Shown one piece after another: positions 1 to 11,155 of a DNA stretch of 28,431 nucleotides. Source of the stretch: a virus. Position 1 is the first letter of the stretch. Every line of letters begins with the position of its first letter. The notes beneath the pieces are model-generated. The model saw only the letters and a list, made by a program, of their open reading frames with translations, did no database searches and was not told the DNA's origin. The position numbers and the translations under genes are program-made. The stretch is from positions 1-28,431 of the IMG/VR virus record IMGVR_UViG_3300032073_000175. One strand, given 5' to 3'.

Positions 1-333
1 AATAGTCTGTTCATAACTTCCAGGCCTTGGTATTGTTTGTTCATATGAAGCAGGTCTAGGTATTGTTACCTCATAGTTAGCAGGTCTATTGATTGTCTGT
101 TCGTATGAAGTGGGTCTCGGAATAGTCTGTTCATAACTAGATGGTCTAGAGTTCTGTAACTGTGCTGGTCTATTAATTGTTTGTTCATAGTTAGCAGGTC
201 TATTGATTGTTTGTTCATAGTTGGCAGGTCTAGAGTTTTGCAACTGTGCTGGTCTATTAATAGTCTGTTCATATGAAGTAGGTCTAGGTATAGTTACCTC
301 ATAAGTTGTAGGTCTACTAATAGTCTGTTCATA
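1..333 (-). repeat. 30-bp tandem repeats encoding YEQTI(N/P)RP decapeptides
   Basis: Ten units begin with Tyr at residues 72, 82, 92, 110, 120, 138, 148, 158, 168 and 178 of the partial gene at 1-546. Two units carry the same 24-base insertion, making two near-identical 54-base blocks at 220-273 and 136-189. The array reaches the window edge, so the copy number is unknown. Tandem arrays of this kind can change length by recombination or slippage. Confidence 0.9.
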
Positions 334-546
334 AGGTTGTTGGTAACCTTGTTGATAAGGTTGTTGAAATGGTTGCTGATAAGTCTGCTGAAAGGGTTGT
401 TGCACCTGTATAGTTCCAGTCTGGAATTCCCATCCAGTTGGAGTCTTTCTTTTTACATCAACAACTTTTTTCCAGCCAGATGGAGTCTTGACTCTCCATC
501 CTGTAGTCTCATTCCATCCTGCTGGAGTTTTTACTTTTGAACTCAT
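1..546 (-). CDS. Repeat-rich fibre-associated protein (partial, C-terminus beyond window)
   Basis: The frame is open from an ATG at 546-544 to the window edge, giving 182 visible residues. A GAGG ribosome-binding site lies 10 bases upstream, and the gene starts 32 bases after the 1417-residue fibre stops. Residues 6-39 hold three KTPxGW units spaced exactly 14 residues apart (K6, K20, K34). Residues 47-74 are Gln-rich with Pro, Phe and Tyr. From Tyr72 onward a decapeptide of the form YE(Q/V)TI(N/P/S)RPxx repeats ten times up to the edge, twice with an eight-residue insert AQLQNSRP. I do not recognise a named family. KTPxGW-type repeats occur in phage fibre-associated proteins, and the location fits an adhesin, fibre tip or fibre accessory role, which is inference. 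No signal peptide or membrane segment is seen. The continuous frame, ribosome-binding site and codon-level conservation between repeat units argue that it is real. Confidence 0.85.
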   Translation of the reverse strand, partial: MSSKVKTPAGWNETTGWRVKTPSGWKKVVDVKRKTPTGWEFQTGTIQVQQPFQQTYQQPFQQPYQQGYQQPYEQTISRPTTYEVTIPRPTSYEQTINRPAQLQNSRPANYEQTINRPANYEQTINRPAQLQNSRPSSYEQTIPRPTSYEQTINRPANYEVTIPRPASYEQTIPRPGSYEQTI

Positions 547-578: not shown

Positions 579-3500
579 CTATGAGTATGTTATCCAGATA
601 TCACCTACTGCTCCATCTGAACCGCCTGGGGCAGAACTATGTATAAATGTATTTCTGAATGCTTTTGCACTAGCACCTATTGTCGTATAACTTGTTGTTG
701 CAGCTCCTGTAACACCCAATGTTCCACCCACTGTTTGGTTACCACTAACTGCTAATCCTGTTAAAGTACCAACACTTGTAATTGCAGTCTGAGCTGCACC
801 TGTTACTGTAGCTGCAGTTCCAGAAGTGTTTCCTGTGACATTACCTTGTAAGTTTGCAACTAAAGTACCTGTACTTATTGTTAAATTACCACTAGAGGCT
901 CCAGTTGCACTTGTTGTTCCCATAACAAACTTATCTGCACTTTCATCCCAACCCATAAATGCATTTGAAGAACTTCCTCTTTCGATAATGATACCAGAAT
1001 CACCAGAAGGTGAACCAGAATTACCTGTTCCAAGTTCTATAAGTTGGTCTTCAATTGTTGTGTTTGTTGAACTGTTTGTTACAGATGAACCATTAACTGT
1101 TAAATTACCAGAAATTACAACATTACCACTTGCAGTAACATCTGTTGCAGCTATATCTGCAAAAGTTACATCTGCTGTTGTTGCAACACTCTGTCCAATA
1201 CTAATTGCAGGCTCCCATCCTTCACCAGCACTACCACTTACAGTAACACCAGTTCCACCAGTAACATTGTCAACATAGTTTCCAGATGTTCCAGAACCTA
1301 ATGCAACTGTACCTACTGTTAGGTCAATTGTGTTGTCTGCATCTTGATATGTTACAGTGATACCACTTTCAGTGTTTGAACTGAACATTGCACCTACTGT
1401 GTCTGATACTGCTTCTGCAAAGTCTGATACTTGAGATGCAGGCATACTAATGTCTACATTAGATGCACTTGTTACTCTACCTTTTGCATCTACTGCTACT
1501 TGAGCAACACTATTTGCATCACCATAAGTTGCAGCCGATACACCAGAGTTTGCAAGTGTAATTGGTAATGCAACATTACCTGTTCCATCAAATGATTGTG
1601 ATGAGTCTGTAGTTGCATCTCCACTTACTGTAAAGTTTCTTGAAGTTGCAAGTGCTGTTGCAGTTGCAGCGTTTCCTGTTGTACTTCCAGAAGTACCACT
1701 TACATTACCTGTAATGTTTGCAATTAATGTACCTACTGTATATCCTGTTGCACTTGTATTAACTGTTGTTGAAGGTACTGTTTGTGTATCTGAGAATAAT
1801 CTAAATGTATTGTCTGTTGATGCATCATAGAATAAACCAGCATATTTTGTGGTTGATGATTCTACATACTTACCATAGAAACCAAAGTCTGTTGCGTTTC
1901 CTGTGTTTGCATCTGATAAACCTGTAAAGTTTGAATCTGAAACTGTTGCACCAGTGTTAGTTGTTGTACCACTAACTACCAAGTTACCTGTAACTGTTAA
2001 GTCATTTGATACTGTTACATCACTTGGTAATCCTACTGTTACTGTTCCAGCATTTTCTGCAACATCTACTTCGTTTGATGTTCCAGCAAAAGTTAAAGTA
2101 CCACCTAATGATACTGGACTTGTATTTGAACCATCGGAAACTGTTATACTTGAATTTGAAAGTTTACTGTTTGCAATTGAACCAGATAACATTGCATTGT
2201 CTACTGCACCAGCAGCTATTGTTGTTGCAAAAGATAAATTACCTAAATTGGTCATTGTTCCAGAACCAGTTACATCTCCTGTTAGAGATATTGTTGGGTC
2301 GTTAACATTGAAGTCTAGAGTACCATCTGAGTCCTCATATGTGACTGCTATACCACTTTCTGTGTTGGATGACACCATTGCACCAACCACATCTTGAACT
2401 GCTTCTGAGAAGTCTGATACGATTGTTGAAGCTGTACCACTTACTACTAGGTCTATTGTTCCATCACCATCTTCGTAAGTTGCACTAATTCCTGTTTCAG
2501 TGTTTGAACTGAACATTGCACCTACTGTGTCTTGAACTACTTCTGATAAGTCAATGTTTGCACTACCATCAAATGATACACCATGAATTGTTCTTGGAGT
2601 TGCTAATGCTGTAGCTGTTGATGCATTACCTGTTAATGCACCACTAAATGCACCTGTAAATGTAGGAGCAGTTACTTCTGCATTAAAAGTAGCTTCACCT
2701 GCTTCAGACATATCAAGTGTAAGAGCCGTTATTTCTGAACCACCATCATTACCTTTGAATATTAAATCACCATCTGAATTAGTTGATTTAATGGTATTAC
2801 CATCAACATTAATATTGTCCACAAATAAATGTGTAAATGGATAACTTGAATTACCAAGAGGGAATGCAACATTTGGTGATAAACCAACATTTGCAGAAGC
2901 TAATAACCATGAAGTTCCACCAGATTTAAATATCAACATATCATCAATAGGTGAACCAGCAATTGATGTATCACCATCTACATCAAAAATAATTGCATTA
3001 CCATTCGTATCAAGAGGTTTTCCTAATAATATTGTTTCTGCTGAGTCTGTAGTATTAAAAGTTAAATAGTCATTACTACCTTCTGAAATGGTAAGAGCAG
3101 TTGCTGAGTTATCGGCTACAGATATCTTTGAACCATCAATAGTAATATCATCTACTGTTAATGAGGTAAGAGTACCAAGACTCGTTATTCCACTTTGTGC
3201 AGCGTCTACTGATAATGTATGTGCAATACCTTCACCAGAAGTTGCACCAGATGATGAAAGACCTGTTCCTGCTGTTACAGTTCCTACATAGTTACCAGTT
3301 GTGTCTGTTCCTAATGCAACTGAATCAGCTTGAATTGTTGAGTTAATAGTTATGTTTCCACTTCCATCAAAAGATGCAGAACCAACTACATCTCCAGCGA
3401 CTGCAATAGTTCTTGCAGTTGCAAGTGCAGAAGCTGTGGATGCATTACCTGTTAATGCACCTTCAACATTTGCAAGTAAAGTACCTGTTGCATGTCCTGT

Positions 3501-4832
3501 TCCAGAAGTATTTACTGTTGTTGTAGGTTCTGATTGGTTTCCATGAAACAATCTAAATTTATTTGATTCGGATGCATCCCATAGTAGACCAGCATATTTT
3601 GTAGTTGAACCATCAACATACTGACCATATAAACCAAAGTCAATTGCATCTGCAGCGTTGTCTTTTGCAACTTTAACTGCACCATCTGTTACTGCAAGAG
3701 TAGAAGATGAAACTGTAGTTGTACTTCCTTGTACTGTTAAGTTACCACTTAATGTCATATTGGTTGCACCAATATCTCCTGTAACTGTTAGGTCATCTCC
3801 AATAGTTACATCATCTGGTAATGAAATCGTGACACCTGCTGTTTCTGAACCAGAACCAGAGACAGTAATCTCATTTGCAGTTCCAGCAATTGTTGCAACA
3901 TAGTTTCCTGTTGTGTCTGTTCCTAATGCAACACTATTGGCTGCAATAGTGGTTGTAATTCCAACATTTCCTAAATCTGTCATTGTTGCAGAACCAGTCA
4001 CATCTCCAGTTAAGGAAATGGTAGGGTCGTTTACATTGAAATCTAAAGTACCATCTGAGTCATCATAGGTAACCATAATACCACTTTCGGTATTAGATGA
4101 TACCATTCCACCCACAACATCTTGTACTCTTTCTGTTGTATGATATTGATTTGTTCCTTCTGCAAGTTGGGTTGTAGTTGGGACTTCACCTAAGTGAACA
4201 TTTCCACCCATTCCACTATGGTTTGCACAATAGTAGTAGTGTGGATTCATTGCATCCATTTCAAAACATACTTCTACATATGCACCAGCATTACCTGCTG
4301 TTCCTACTTTATTGTAGATAGTTGTTCCAGCAGATATTTCAGAACCACTATTATGTGTTCCATCACTAGTTGTTGAGAATCTTAAAGGATGTGAGGAATT
4401 ACTACCAGCTGATTGGTCAAATCTGTAAACAACATTGGGAGAAAGTTTAGCTGTTTGTTGTGAACCACCATCTAGTAAAAATTTACCACTAGAAACAGTA
4501 ACTACAACTTTATGGTAGTATGGTGCTGATGTATTGTTTAATTGTTGTTCTACTGCAAGGTCGATAGTTCCATCACCATCTTCGTAACCTACAGTTATGT
4601 TCGTTTCAGTATTGGAACTAAACATAGCTCCTACTGTGTCTTGTATAAATTCTGCTCCTACTACTGCACTAAATGTACCAGATGAGTCATTATATGTAAA
4701 TGATATACCTGTATGTGTTCCAGCAGCAAACAGACTTGAAATCTGGTCTTGTATCGCTTCAATAGCACCTGTGGAGTCTAGTTCTCCAGATGCATTCAAA
4801 AGGTCTGCAAGATATCTTGCTTTAGTTGGCAT
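579..4832 (-). CDS. Giant modular tail fibre protein with internal cupredoxin-like module
   Basis: This 1417-residue protein is rich in Ser, Thr, Gly and Ala, typical of an elongated trimeric phage fibre. It starts with ATG behind an AGGGAGA ribosome-binding site at 4842-4848. The N-terminal MPTKARYLADLL segment resembles anchors of marine phage fibres. Six copies of a QDxVGxM...YxDxDGTxDF module are spread along it. Residues about 105-215 form a different domain with His148, Cys202, His205 and Met208 in a plastocyanin-like pattern. Residues about 236-500 and 810-1090 are diverged copies of one long block, including a DFG(L/F)YGxY segment followed by STTKYAGL. The C-terminus ends in GDIWITYS, with no S74 chaperone, so folding help may come from another protein. 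A CATAAATA late-promoter-like octamer lies 34 bases before the ATG. Its place among fibre genes supports a host-contact role. The receptor is unknown. Confidence 0.85.
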   Translation of the reverse strand: MPTKARYLADLLNASGELDSTGAIEAIQDQISSLFAAGTHTGISFTYNDSSGTFSAVVGAEFIQDTVGAMFSSNTETNITVGYEDGDGTIDLAVEQQLNNTSAPYYHKVVVTVSSGKFLLDGGSQQTAKLSPNVVYRFDQSAGSNSSHPLRFSTTSDGTHNSGSEISAGTTIYNKVGTAGNAGAYVEVCFEMDAMNPHYYYCANHSGMGGNVHLGEVPTTTQLAEGTNQYHTTERVQDVVGGMVSSNTESGIMVTYDDSDGTLDFNVNDPTISLTGDVTGSATMTDLGNVGITTTIAANSVALGTDTTGNYVATIAGTANEITVSGSGSETAGVTISLPDDVTIGDDLTVTGDIGATNMTLSGNLTVQGSTTTVSSSTLAVTDGAVKVAKDNAADAIDFGLYGQYVDGSTTKYAGLLWDASESNKFRLFHGNQSEPTTTVNTSGTGHATGTLLANVEGALTGNASTASALATARTIAVAGDVVGSASFDGSGNITINSTIQADSVALGTDTTGNYVGTVTAGTGLSSSGATSGEGIAHTLSVDAAQSGITSLGTLTSLTVDDITIDGSKISVADNSATALTISEGSNDYLTFNTTDSAETILLGKPLDTNGNAIIFDVDGDTSIAGSPIDDMLIFKSGGTSWLLASANVGLSPNVAFPLGNSSYPFTHLFVDNINVDGNTIKSTNSDGDLIFKGNDGGSEITALTLDMSEAGEATFNAEVTAPTFTGAFSGALTGNASTATALATPRTIHGVSFDGSANIDLSEVVQDTVGAMFSSNTETGISATYEDGDGTIDLVVSGTASTIVSDFSEAVQDVVGAMVSSNTESGIAVTYEDSDGTLDFNVNDPTISLTGDVTGSGTMTNLGNLSFATTIAAGAVDNAMLSGSIANSKLSNSSITVSDGSNTSPVSLGGTLTFAGTSNEVDVAENAGTVTVGLPSDVTVSNDLTVTGNLVVSGTTTNTGATVSDSNFTGLSDANTGNATDFGFYGKYVESSTTKYAGLFYDASTDNTFRLFSDTQTVPSTTVNTSATGYTVGTLIANITGNVSGTSGSTTGNAATATALATSRNFTVSGDATTDSSQSFDGTGNVALPITLANSGVSAATYGDANSVAQVAVDAKGRVTSASNVDISMPASQVSDFAEAVSDTVGAMFSSNTESGITVTYQDADNTIDLTVGTVALGSGTSGNYVDNVTGGTGVTVSGSAGEGWEPAISIGQSVATTADVTFADIAATDVTASGNVVISGNLTVNGSSVTNSSTNTTIEDQLIELGTGNSGSPSGDSGIIIERGSSSNAFMGWDESADKFVMGTTSATGASSGNLTISTGTLVANLQGNVTGNTSGTAATVTGAAQTAITSVGTLTGLAVSGNQTVGGTLGVTGAATTSYTTIGASAKAFRNTFIHSSAPGGSDGAVGDIWITYS
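1555..2405 (-). repeat. Copy B of the long internal duplication in the 1417-residue fibre
   Basis: The motif order matches the block at 3330-4130: VQDVVGAM, NDPTISLTGDVTG, NEVDVAE, a TGNLVVSG segment, YGKYVESSTTKYAGLFYDAS, TVNTSATGYTVGTL, then NAATATALATSR. The copies have diverged in sequence and slightly in length, so the duplication is not recent. Confidence 0.7.
3330..4130 (-). repeat. Copy A of a long internal duplication in the 1417-residue fibre
   Basis: This block runs from VQDVVGGM through NDPTISLTGDVTG, NEITVSG, a GNLTVQG segment, YGQYVDGSTTKYAGLLWDAS and TVNTSGTGHATGTL to a NASTASALATAR segment. The same order of motifs recurs at about 1555-2405. At the start of the block the two DNA copies are still clearly alignable by eye. 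Confidence 0.7.
4188..4530 (-). other. Cupredoxin-like (plastocyanin-type) domain within the 1417-residue fibre
   Basis: Residues about 102-215 break the repeat pattern. A beta-rich stretch leads to SNSSHPLRFSTTSDG with His148. About 50 residues later comes YYYCANHSGMGG with Cys202, His205 and Met208. Type 1 copper proteins use one upstream His and a downstream Cys, His and Met. Plastocyanin spacing is C-x2-H-x4-M, while here it is C-x2-H-x2-M, so copper binding is plausible but not proven. The same module occurs, as I recall, in other marine phage fibres. Confidence 0.6.
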
Positions 4833-8713: not shown

Positions 8714-11155
8714 TTAAGACTTTAAACTTTCGATTTCTGATTTGAGTTCTTTGATTGCTTCAATAAGTAGAGGAACTACTTTATCATAGTGGACACTATC
8801 GTATTGACCTTCAATTGCATTTTCAACTACAACTTCTGGAAGAACTGATTTAATTTCTTGTGCAGATACACCAACTTGTAGTTGGTCTGCATATTGTGGA
8901 GTAATCTCATTACCCTTTTCGTTCTGTTTGAAGTAGAATCCATTTAATGCACATACTTTATCTACTGGATTTTTTATACTACCCAATCTAGTTTTTAATC
9001 TATCATCTGAGTAGTATGCAGTGATATTACCTGTTGACCTAACTTCAGCAAAAGTAACTACAGAACCAGAGTCGGTATATTGGTTCATGTTTCGTGCATA
9101 GATATTAGATACAGAGAATGAAGTTCCAGATAATGATAATCCAACTCCAGCACTATAAGTTGTATTGGTGTCGGTATTAGTATCTGTTGAATTAATTGTA
9201 ATTGTATTACCAGATTGTGATATAGAAGATGCACCAGAAGCTGCAAGAGTAATTGTACCTGTATTCTGTTGACCAGAAACACCAACTGAGGTTACAGTGT
9301 TAGTATCAGTATTGGTATCACTCCAAGGCACATTGACAAACATTTTACCACTTGATAATTCAACTGGATAGTTTTTACCATTTTCTGAATATCCAATTTT
9401 AACAAGACCTAATGCAGATGATGTTGCTGTTGAATAAGTTGTATTAGTGTTTGTATCTGTTGAAGTAATTGTGATATCATCACCAGAACGAGTTACAGTT
9501 GTTGCACCAGCACCACTAAATGTTACTGTATCACCATGACTAACTTGGTCTGTTCCAGCAGTTCCATTTGCAGCTATATTCCAAACTGTAAGTTGGTTAG
9601 TATTAGTGTCGGTATTGGTATCTGTAGAATTGACTGTGACTGTTCCTGTGGAATCATTATAAGATACAGAAGTTGCACCAGTACCAGTAAACATTGCACC
9701 TACAATGTCTTCTATTTCTTCTTGAGTTTTTTGAGTTGATGCAATAGTTAAGTTATCACCACTTGGTGTTAAAGTAATATTACTTCCTGCTACAAATTTT
9801 AAATCATCGTTTCCAGACCCAGAACCACCAGCAGTTAATCTGAGAATTGCATCATTAGAACTATCTACAAATGATGTTGAATAGGTTGTATCTGTTTGTG
9901 AGATTGCACCCCAACTTAATGCACTACCATTAGTTGTTAAGAACTTACCATTATGTGATGATTGAGATGGAATAACTTGTGCAGTTGCAAGTTGTACTGC
10001 ACCACTTGATACTGAGAATTGACCACTATTAAAACTTGCTAAACCTTTTGCAGAAGTACTTGCATCTGCAATTGTGAAGTCTAAAGTACCATCTCCATCT
10101 TCGTATGCTACAGCAATACCAGTTTCAGTATTAGATGATACCATTCCACCTACGATGTCTTGTATCTCTTCTGTTGTTTTACCTGTTGAAGATATAACTA
10201 ATGTTCCAGCACTATCGTTGTAAGTTGCAGTTGTTGAACCAGAACCAGAGATTAATGCACCCACAGTATCTTGTATCTGTTCTGTTAAATCTATATTTGC
10301 AGTACCATTAAAAGATACTCCATGTATTGTTCTTGCATTTTGTAATGCAGTAGCAGTTGCAGCGTTACCTGTTGTATCTGCTGAACCAGTTGCAGAGATT
10401 TGACCAGTTGAACTATTATATGCTATACCATTACCAGCAGAGAAAAGAGCTCTTGAACTTGCACTAAATCCAGATAAATCTGATGCAGTTATTTGTGAAC
10501 CATTTACTTTAATGGTTGCACCACTTGTTAAATTTAAATTACCATTTACAAATACTTCTTTTGAAGTCCCACCAGTATTTAAATAAATGTTTGAACCATC
10601 GGATTCTAGTTGGATACCATATCCACTTGCTGGTGTTGTAACAACACTAGTTGCATCTGAATTAATAACAACTCCAGCAGTAGTATCGTGATTGTAAATA
10701 GAACCAGCACCAGTCTTAGTCCATTGAGTTGTAGCAGCTGCAGTAGTACCAGCAATACCTTCGTATGAACCAGTAAAAGATGTGATTCTTATTACATCTG
10801 AGTTTGCAGCGGAAGATGCAAGAGTAATACTTGTACCATTAGCTGCAGAGTAGTCTGTACCACTTCTGAGTAGTGTACCATTTTTAAATACTAGTAATCT
10901 GTTAACTGAATAGTTTAATGAGTTTCCAAAGTTGTCGTTTCCACTAAATGTTCTATTTGAACTTGCACCATCTGACCCATCATATTCGAAATCTTGAAAA
11001 TAAAAATATTGGTCAATAATACTATTGATAGAATCTACCAATGTAGATTTTTGATTTGTTCTAAGCGTTCCTAATCCACCAACCTCATTTACGAGGTCGT
11101 TATAAGACTGTCTTAAAACTTCTAAGGTTTCGTTATTACTTACACTTTTAGCCAT
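8714..11155 (-). CDS. Tail fibre with C-terminal S74 intramolecular chaperone
   Basis: This 813-residue fibre has an N-terminal helical anchor (residues 1-50, with LEVLRQSYNDLVNEVGGLG), an FLNG-type beta module at 52-130, three QDxVGxM modules, one KGLASF...VSSGAV module and four Thr-Asp-Asn-rich stretches such as TDTNTDTNT. The last 98 residues are a Peptidase S74 endosialidase-type chaperone: YYSDDRLK places Ser716 and Lys721 five residues apart, as in the catalytic Ser/Lys pair, and GVSAQE plus a C-terminal coiled coil ending KELKSEIESLKS complete the pattern. S74 domains help fibres trimerise and then cut themselves off just before the Ser. The ATG directly abuts the stop of the 66-residue gene and has only a weak ribosome-binding site, so translational coupling is likely. 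It is probably a host-recognition fibre. Confidence 0.9.
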   Translation of the reverse strand: MAKSVSNNETLEVLRQSYNDLVNEVGGLGTLRTNQKSTLVDSINSIIDQYFYFQDFEYDGSDGASSNRTFSGNDNFGNSLNYSVNRLLVFKNGTLLRSGTDYSAANGTSITLASSAANSDVIRITSFTGSYEGIAGTTAAATTQWTKTGAGSIYNHDTTAGVVINSDATSVVTTPASGYGIQLESDGSNIYLNTGGTSKEVFVNGNLNLTSGATIKVNGSQITASDLSGFSASSRALFSAGNGIAYNSSTGQISATGSADTTGNAATATALQNARTIHGVSFNGTANIDLTEQIQDTVGALISGSGSTTATYNDSAGTLVISSTGKTTEEIQDIVGGMVSSNTETGIAVAYEDGDGTLDFTIADASTSAKGLASFNSGQFSVSSGAVQLATAQVIPSQSSHNGKFLTTNGSALSWGAISQTDTTYSTSFVDSSNDAILRLTAGGSGSGNDDLKFVAGSNITLTPSGDNLTIASTQKTQEEIEDIVGAMFTGTGATSVSYNDSTGTVTVNSTDTNTDTNTNQLTVWNIAANGTAGTDQVSHGDTVTFSGAGATTVTRSGDDITITSTDTNTNTTYSTATSSALGLVKIGYSENGKNYPVELSSGKMFVNVPWSDTNTDTNTVTSVGVSGQQNTGTITLAASGASSISQSGNTITINSTDTNTDTNTTYSAGVGLSLSGTSFSVSNIYARNMNQYTDSGSVVTFAEVRSTGNITAYYSDDRLKTRLGSIKNPVDKVCALNGFYFKQNEKGNEITPQYADQLQVGVSAQEIKSVLPEVVVENAIEGQYDSVHYDKVVPLLIEAIKELKSEIESLKS
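8717..9010 (-). other. Peptidase S74 chaperone domain with predicted self-cleavage site
   Basis: Residues 716-813 of the 813-residue fibre. Ser716 begins the domain and Lys721 is the expected general base. The predicted cut between Tyr715 and Ser716 would release a 98-residue chaperone. Both key residues are intact. The domain ends in a charged coiled coil. Confidence 0.85.
10766..11002 (-). repeat. FLNG-type beta module in the 813-residue fibre
   Basis: Residues 52-130 carry RTFSGNDNFGNSLNYSVNRL, LLVFKNGTLLRSGTDYSA and NGTSITLASSAANSDVIRI. This is the same module found three times in the 433-residue fibre and, diverged, once in the gp7-like protein (around residues 518-616). Confidence 0.75.

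Follow-up and report, generated by a model that had tools for sequence, protein, structure and literature searches.

Mirror-ordered, complementary repeat arms in a putative tail-fibre stalk protein of uncultured T4-like marine phages

The stretch of DNA analysed here, hereafter the window, is a whole virus record of 28,431 bases. Pfam and PHROG searches showed that it encodes the baseplate proteins gp25 and gp6 and a DUF4815 protein, and the best matches of its gp6 (40%–42% identity) are in Methylophilales phage Melnitz and the Pelagibacter phages Mosig and HTVC008M. Judging by these genes and matches, the source of the window is an uncultured T4-like marine myovirus. On the minus strand, 182 codons without a stop run from the ATG at position 546 to base 1, where the gene is truncated by the left edge of the window (Table 1); a first-pass annotation of this DNA had proposed both the open frame and its ribosome-binding site, and both are borne out. 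The ATG is separated by 32 nt from the stop codon of the gene for a 1417-aa tail fibre. Another fibre protein, of 813 aa (window positions 8714-11155), carries an S74 endosialidase-type chaperone domain at its C-terminus.

Table 1. Features of the mirror-arm gene and its upstream neighbour in the window
Feature	Position	Strand	Remark
Mirror-arm gene, 5' part (182 codons)	1..546	-	Open frame; homologues 524-604 aa at full length
Ribosome-binding site GAGGAA	555..560 (560-555)	-	Sequence upstream of the ATG
Tail-fibre gene, 1417 aa, upstream	579..4832	-	Order fibre gene, then mirror-arm gene, also in relatives
N-terminal base module with three KTPxGW	403..546	-	Conserved even where the arms of relatives differ widely; served as profile A3
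KTPxGW units	531-514, 489-472, 447-430	-	Within the base module
(QQPx)6 period-4 ladder	331..402	-	Opposite the C-terminal (TRPx)6 in homologues; six QQ versus six RP at mirrored positions
Outgoing arm, proximal half	1..330	-	RP spacings; list of units and predicted partner units

The encoded fragment is modular. KTPAGW, KTPSGW and KTPTGW begin at residues 6, 20 and 34, an exact 14-residue spacing, and the Gln-rich bridge has a period of four residues (QQPx), both in agreement with the first-pass annotation. The same annotation had described ten such units and a repeat of 10 residues; the count of ten YE[QV]TI units stands. The successive RP units of the arm measure 10, 10, 8, 10, 10, 8, 10, 10, 10 and 10 residues (RPxxYE[QV]TIx and RPAQLQNS), the two 8-residue units (RPAQLQNS) having previously been overlooked. 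The frame contains 11 RP dipeptides, all on the same parity. With its three KTPxGW motifs and its RP units, the fragment fits the family described below and, judging by the homologues, the tip and the entire second arm of the window protein would lie beyond the left edge.

Related proteins in other phages, envisaged in the first-pass annotation as a check, were found in 22 viral contigs beyond the window, where complete copies measure 524-604 aa and one copy lacks a start. A further full copy is carried by L040 (NYUU01000002.1), which was assigned to the bin of a Synechococcus metagenome-assembled genome (MAG) and may be a phage contig. Because the full-length gene occurs in 22 viral contigs and one Synechococcus MAG contig, a chance frame is excluded. 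The proteins consist of the KTPxGW base, (QQPx)n, a first arm, a non-repeated centre, a second arm, (TRPx)n and the terminal motif VSTWDGDxNKPWP; the three KTPxGW, the mirrored complementary arms and the WDG..WP end, either fused or on a partner gene, recur in the homologues. The centre, which in most homologues includes a segment NPKFG...GPW, varies between 29 and 72 residues in length, counted between the flanking RPs. The RP codons vary synonymously among relatives and the RP pattern is thus kept at the protein level. The gene follows fibre genes and is itself followed by a small gene without known function, a 2OG-Fe(II) oxygenase gene and, further on, neck genes, which is the position of a T4-like fibre/baseplate operon before the neck genes.

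Searches of Pfam and PHROGs yielded no family assignment beyond low complexity; keratin-like Pfam matches were rejected as reflecting low complexity rather than homology. Among the cultured phages searched, no clear homologue of the main (KTPxGW/RP) family was detected. The tblastn matches in phages of Lactobacillus, Pseudomonas, Arthrobacter, Streptococcus, Vibrio and Escherichia were regarded as compositional, and those to SAC12B and ctHz2215 (Manatee Spring), examined in full, proved to be simple repeats. A single scan with the profile of the KTPxGW base confirmed 192 of 251 matched stretches, the best 80 of which were kept, thereby exposing a large unannotated fibre family of uncultured T4-like ocean phages.

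The arms are built on an even metre. Outside the centre, 952 of 953 distances between successive RPs equal 4, 8, 10 or 12 residues, a count that covers all homologues, some of them nearly identical, and in which the longer gaps represent the centre and 51-residue His-rich units. Residue types also divide by parity, Arg, Tyr/Phe, Ile and Val occupying one and Pro, Glu and Ser mainly the other, much as a two-faced strand would show. Moreover, followed from the centre towards the two ends, the spacings agree, with 18/18 or 19/19 matches in most homologues with a plain centre; this agreement was reached by 0-13 of 5000 shuffles, which ignore shared ancestry, yet different patterns each retain their own mirror. 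When the spacings were compared in the same order, just 39%–79% matched. Across 22 proteins anchored at the base, mirrored units of ordinary size agree in length in 389 of 391 cases, and an arm matches its own counterpart at 0.99, as against 0.60 on average across proteins (15 distinct patterns). L020, L021 and L034 have as their true centre a gap of 35 residues, flanked by the mirrored 51-residue units, and the mirror match is full once these proteins are anchored at the base. Breaks of register are rare: one arm of L003 contains an additional 10-residue unit, and L012 has one 11-residue unit.

The mirrored units are not copies of each other but belong to complementary types. YEVTI stands opposite YEQTI in 178 of 194 mirrored pairs, the remainder comprising 14 Q:Q, one V:V and one Q:S. 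Heterotypic pairs likewise outnumber homotypic ones 67:0 for the QxQN/YQT 8-residue units, 52:0 for QIxN/QTxG and 45:0 for the 12-residue types, leaving aside a small remainder of units that fall outside the patterns used. Both orientations occur, either type being found in either arm. Within the YExTI class, covariation links positions 6-6 (V6-Q6), 3-9, 9-3, 2-9 and 9-2, of which 6-6 and 3-9 fit a register of i+j = L+2, equivalent to matched unit boundaries; this register sets P opposite P and, at the base, RP opposite QQ. In the main family, proline-only self-mirror counts leave an ambiguity of one 10-residue period, so that the register is set by unit boundaries and covariation; the table of residue pairs, partly shaped by the motif phase around proline, was excluded from the main evidence. 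By these rules, the part of the window protein beyond the edge is predicted to carry, from the tip towards the base, EVTI, EVTI, EQTI, EVTI, EVTI, an 8-residue YQT unit, EVTI, EVTI, an 8-residue YQT unit, EVTI and EQTI, and then, by analogy with the homologues, one more 10-residue unit, six RPxT and VSTWDGD. That the mirror order and the complementarity of types are real is near certain.

The same rule extends to other repeat alphabets and to arms encoded by separate genes. In a more distant group, the first arm is RP-rich and the second QQ-rich, with 16/20 and 19/19 RP-versus-QQ mirror coincidences that none of 2000 shuffles attained; L036, which failed the proline-only self-mirror test, passed the RP/QQ test. 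For the fused proteins among the best 80 of 192, self-mirrored prolines exceed the shuffles in nearly all, L088 merely equalling the shuffle maximum. In many relatives, the two arms are adjacent genes, with the C-arm gene coming first in some, and 20 of 22 distinct pairs lie clearly above the maximum of 200 shuffles. The prolines of the B arm are mostly paired at 90%–100% (72%–81% in L099, L120, L124 and L125); L126 is weak (29 versus a shuffle maximum of 24), and L127, whose A frame is short, does no more than reach the maximum of 200 shuffles and is no better than chance. When six split pairs were cross-tested (1000 shuffles), own partners gave 27-64 coincidences and foreign partners 11-22, each arm matching its own partner alone. 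Among the split A genes, the C-terminal tip is variously short and Gly-rich, extended into a longer domain (as in L103) or formed by a Hint/intein-like domain. The latter ends the first-arm gene at L090:3989-5476, L093:3989-6313 and L099:374-2056, and matches PF14890 with E values of 1e-5 to 1e-7, below Pfam's cut-off. It begins with a Cys that follows a Gly-rich stretch and ends in VHN, and ordinary splicing looks unlikely because the next residue is F or G rather than C, S or T; cleavage, or a link to the partner arm, can be envisaged. A gene of ~525 aa lies after the split-arm genes (L085:4862-6442, L074:5781-7358 and L103:6523-8106), its copy in L085 corresponding to phrog_28018; to the eye only, its motifs look glycosyltransferase-like.

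We propose, with a probability of roughly three in four, that the mirror-arm protein supplies the stalk and tip of a tail fibre in an uncultured T4-like marine phage, with its arms paired antiparallel in a sequence-coded register. The chain would begin at the KTPxGW base, extend outward as a strand of 8-, 10- and 12-residue RP units, make the tip and then return as a second strand along the first to the C-terminal base motif. The register would be coded jointly by the equal lengths of the mirrored units and by their complementary types (V opposite Q, QxQN opposite YQT, QIxN opposite QTxG and proline opposite proline), and zipping would therefore require the correct alignment. In relatives with two neighbouring arm genes, the products would pair as two chains; the assembly would be a hairpin or a two-chain complex, the oligomer possibly being a trimer of hairpins. 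The components of this reading differ in strength. Antiparallel pairing of the arms is highly probable, and a fibre stalk role is nearly as well founded, whereas β pairing, the oligomer state and the stoichiometry are what we infer from these patterns. We also lean, with greater reserve, towards the more general statement that two long arms recognise each other over 200-500 residues by a complementary repeat alphabet, antiparallel and with a private code for each phage.

Mirror complementarity by itself cannot separate intra- from intermolecular pairing, and split-gene relatives necessarily pair between chains, which leaves some room for an extended dimer or fibril in which two antiparallel copies pair without a hairpin tip, each N arm lying along the C arm of the partner copy. 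We consider such an arrangement rather unlikely, given that it would place the two base motifs at opposite ends and that a distinct centre of variable length, together with the diverse tip domains of the split A genes, fits a tip more readily than a mid-fibril position. A disordered Tyr/Arg/Pro-rich accessory, acting as a condensate or sticky adhesive and partly anticipated by the first-pass annotation, would agree with the low-complexity composition and with the low confidence of AlphaFold2 over most of the chain (mean pLDDT of 42 for the full L014 protein). This possibility is very improbable, however, as disorder leaves unexplained the near-invariant even spacing, the mirrored order, the fixed-register covariation and the partner specificity of the split arms; the condensate proposal is unsupported, the strict two-residue periodicity and mirror complementarity favouring an ordered β structure. 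The L014 prediction, made, like all others here, for a single chain, is informative near the centre only, where short strands (pLDDT 64-82) are symmetric about the sum 571, which is also the register derived from the L014 spacings. The subgroup of proteins with HxH motifs gave an uninformative prediction (mean pLDDT 30), and a Foldseek search of PDB folds returned nothing significant. Finally, it is scarcely credible that the mirror is a by-product of repetitive gene origin, through duplication or repeat shuffling, with no structural pairing: although the arms share 54-91 same-strand 15-mers, which implies that units are exchanged between them, they share no inverted 12-mers, and the mirror is therefore not an inverted DNA repeat; duplication yields the same order, in which matching is poor, the unit types are complementary rather than identical, separate arm genes follow the same mirror rule, and no mirror is seen in the controls, which comprised the T4 gp37 needle, the RQP-rich fibre of cyanophage S-SCSM1 and the remaining fibres encoded in the window.

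The position after the fibre gene and before the neck genes also speaks for the fibre stalk. The first-pass annotation had placed an extended, fibre-associated protein right after the largest fibre gene, a view supported by the conserved position and the variable tips of the relatives; gene position and the differing split-A tips suggest a stalk bearing an exchangeable tip. Its further proposal of a freely variable array length did not hold up: most fused homologues measure 524-569 aa (one reaches 604), both arms change jointly, and comparison of the repeats among related phages revealed that unit order and length are tightly constrained. In this reading, the protein would sit in the virion at the fibre end and its tip would bind a receptor, and it may serve as an adhesin or in host range. 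2OG-Fe(II) oxygenase genes lie beside proline-rich genes in L012 (8276-9103 and 10929-11648) and also in S-SCSM1 (L128); the proline-rich fibre could be a substrate of such an enzyme.

In the open-access literature searched, we found no account of a protein whose arms are mirror-ordered and complementary; the novelty concerns the principle of construction, the job of a fibre stalk being of a known kind. If true, a pairing code between long β arms that can be read in the sequence would amount to a novel principle by which fibrous proteins assemble and might provide a toolkit for protein filaments that can be programmed, with the pairing of arms readable from metagenomic sequence alone. In cultured phages, Mosig_00062 (Mosig) and I899_gp065 (HTVC008M) occupy a comparable slot after the fibre genes and close to genes for a 2OG-Fe(II) oxygenase and the neck, but are glycine-rich and carry no RP repeats, KTPxGW or WDG motifs. 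The ‘short tail fiber protein’ SSCSM1_245 of S-SCSM1 (L128:8671-9936), surrounded by many 2OG-Fe(II) oxygenase genes, has a long RQP/NF-rich segment (tblastn E value of 4e-4), yet differs in its ends, is strongly basic and shows no mirror (six coincidences versus 6.2 in shuffles). Its Arg-Gln-Pro-rich segment lies between AHTH and SHNHPF, and the shorter neighbour SSCSM1_244 has similar ends without the segment.

The closest parallel is the T4 gp37 tip, described in PMC6957217, PMC9659904 and PMC7291167 as a six-stranded antiparallel needle with the receptor site at its tip (Bartual et al., 2010), the base domain D10 being built from two chain segments (residues 811-881 and 1010-1026) according to the same papers. 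The out-and-back topology is published for gp37; a similar path, with both chain ends at the base and the tip in the middle, may hold for the mirror-arm protein, as its mirrored arms and distinct centre suggest. The HxH motifs in both arms of L020, L021, L034 and L069 also recall gp37, which has HxH iron sites along its needle. They lie in mirrored 51-residue His-rich units in both arms of the first three, with similar His-rich stretches in L069, are confined to these four proteins within the family and are absent from the window arm; as read in L020, they fall mostly on the R/Y/I face, and they are possible metal sites. Comparison of L020 with solved structures gave no sequence match at E ≤ 1, homology to gp37 or its solved tip was not detected by sequence or profile, and the gp37 needle has no mirror in its His, HxH or Gly positions. 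By analogy, the mirror-arm protein would work like the gp37 needle without being homologous to it. Its arms exceed those of the needle several times in length, are coded by RP and of complementary types, and can be divided between two genes.
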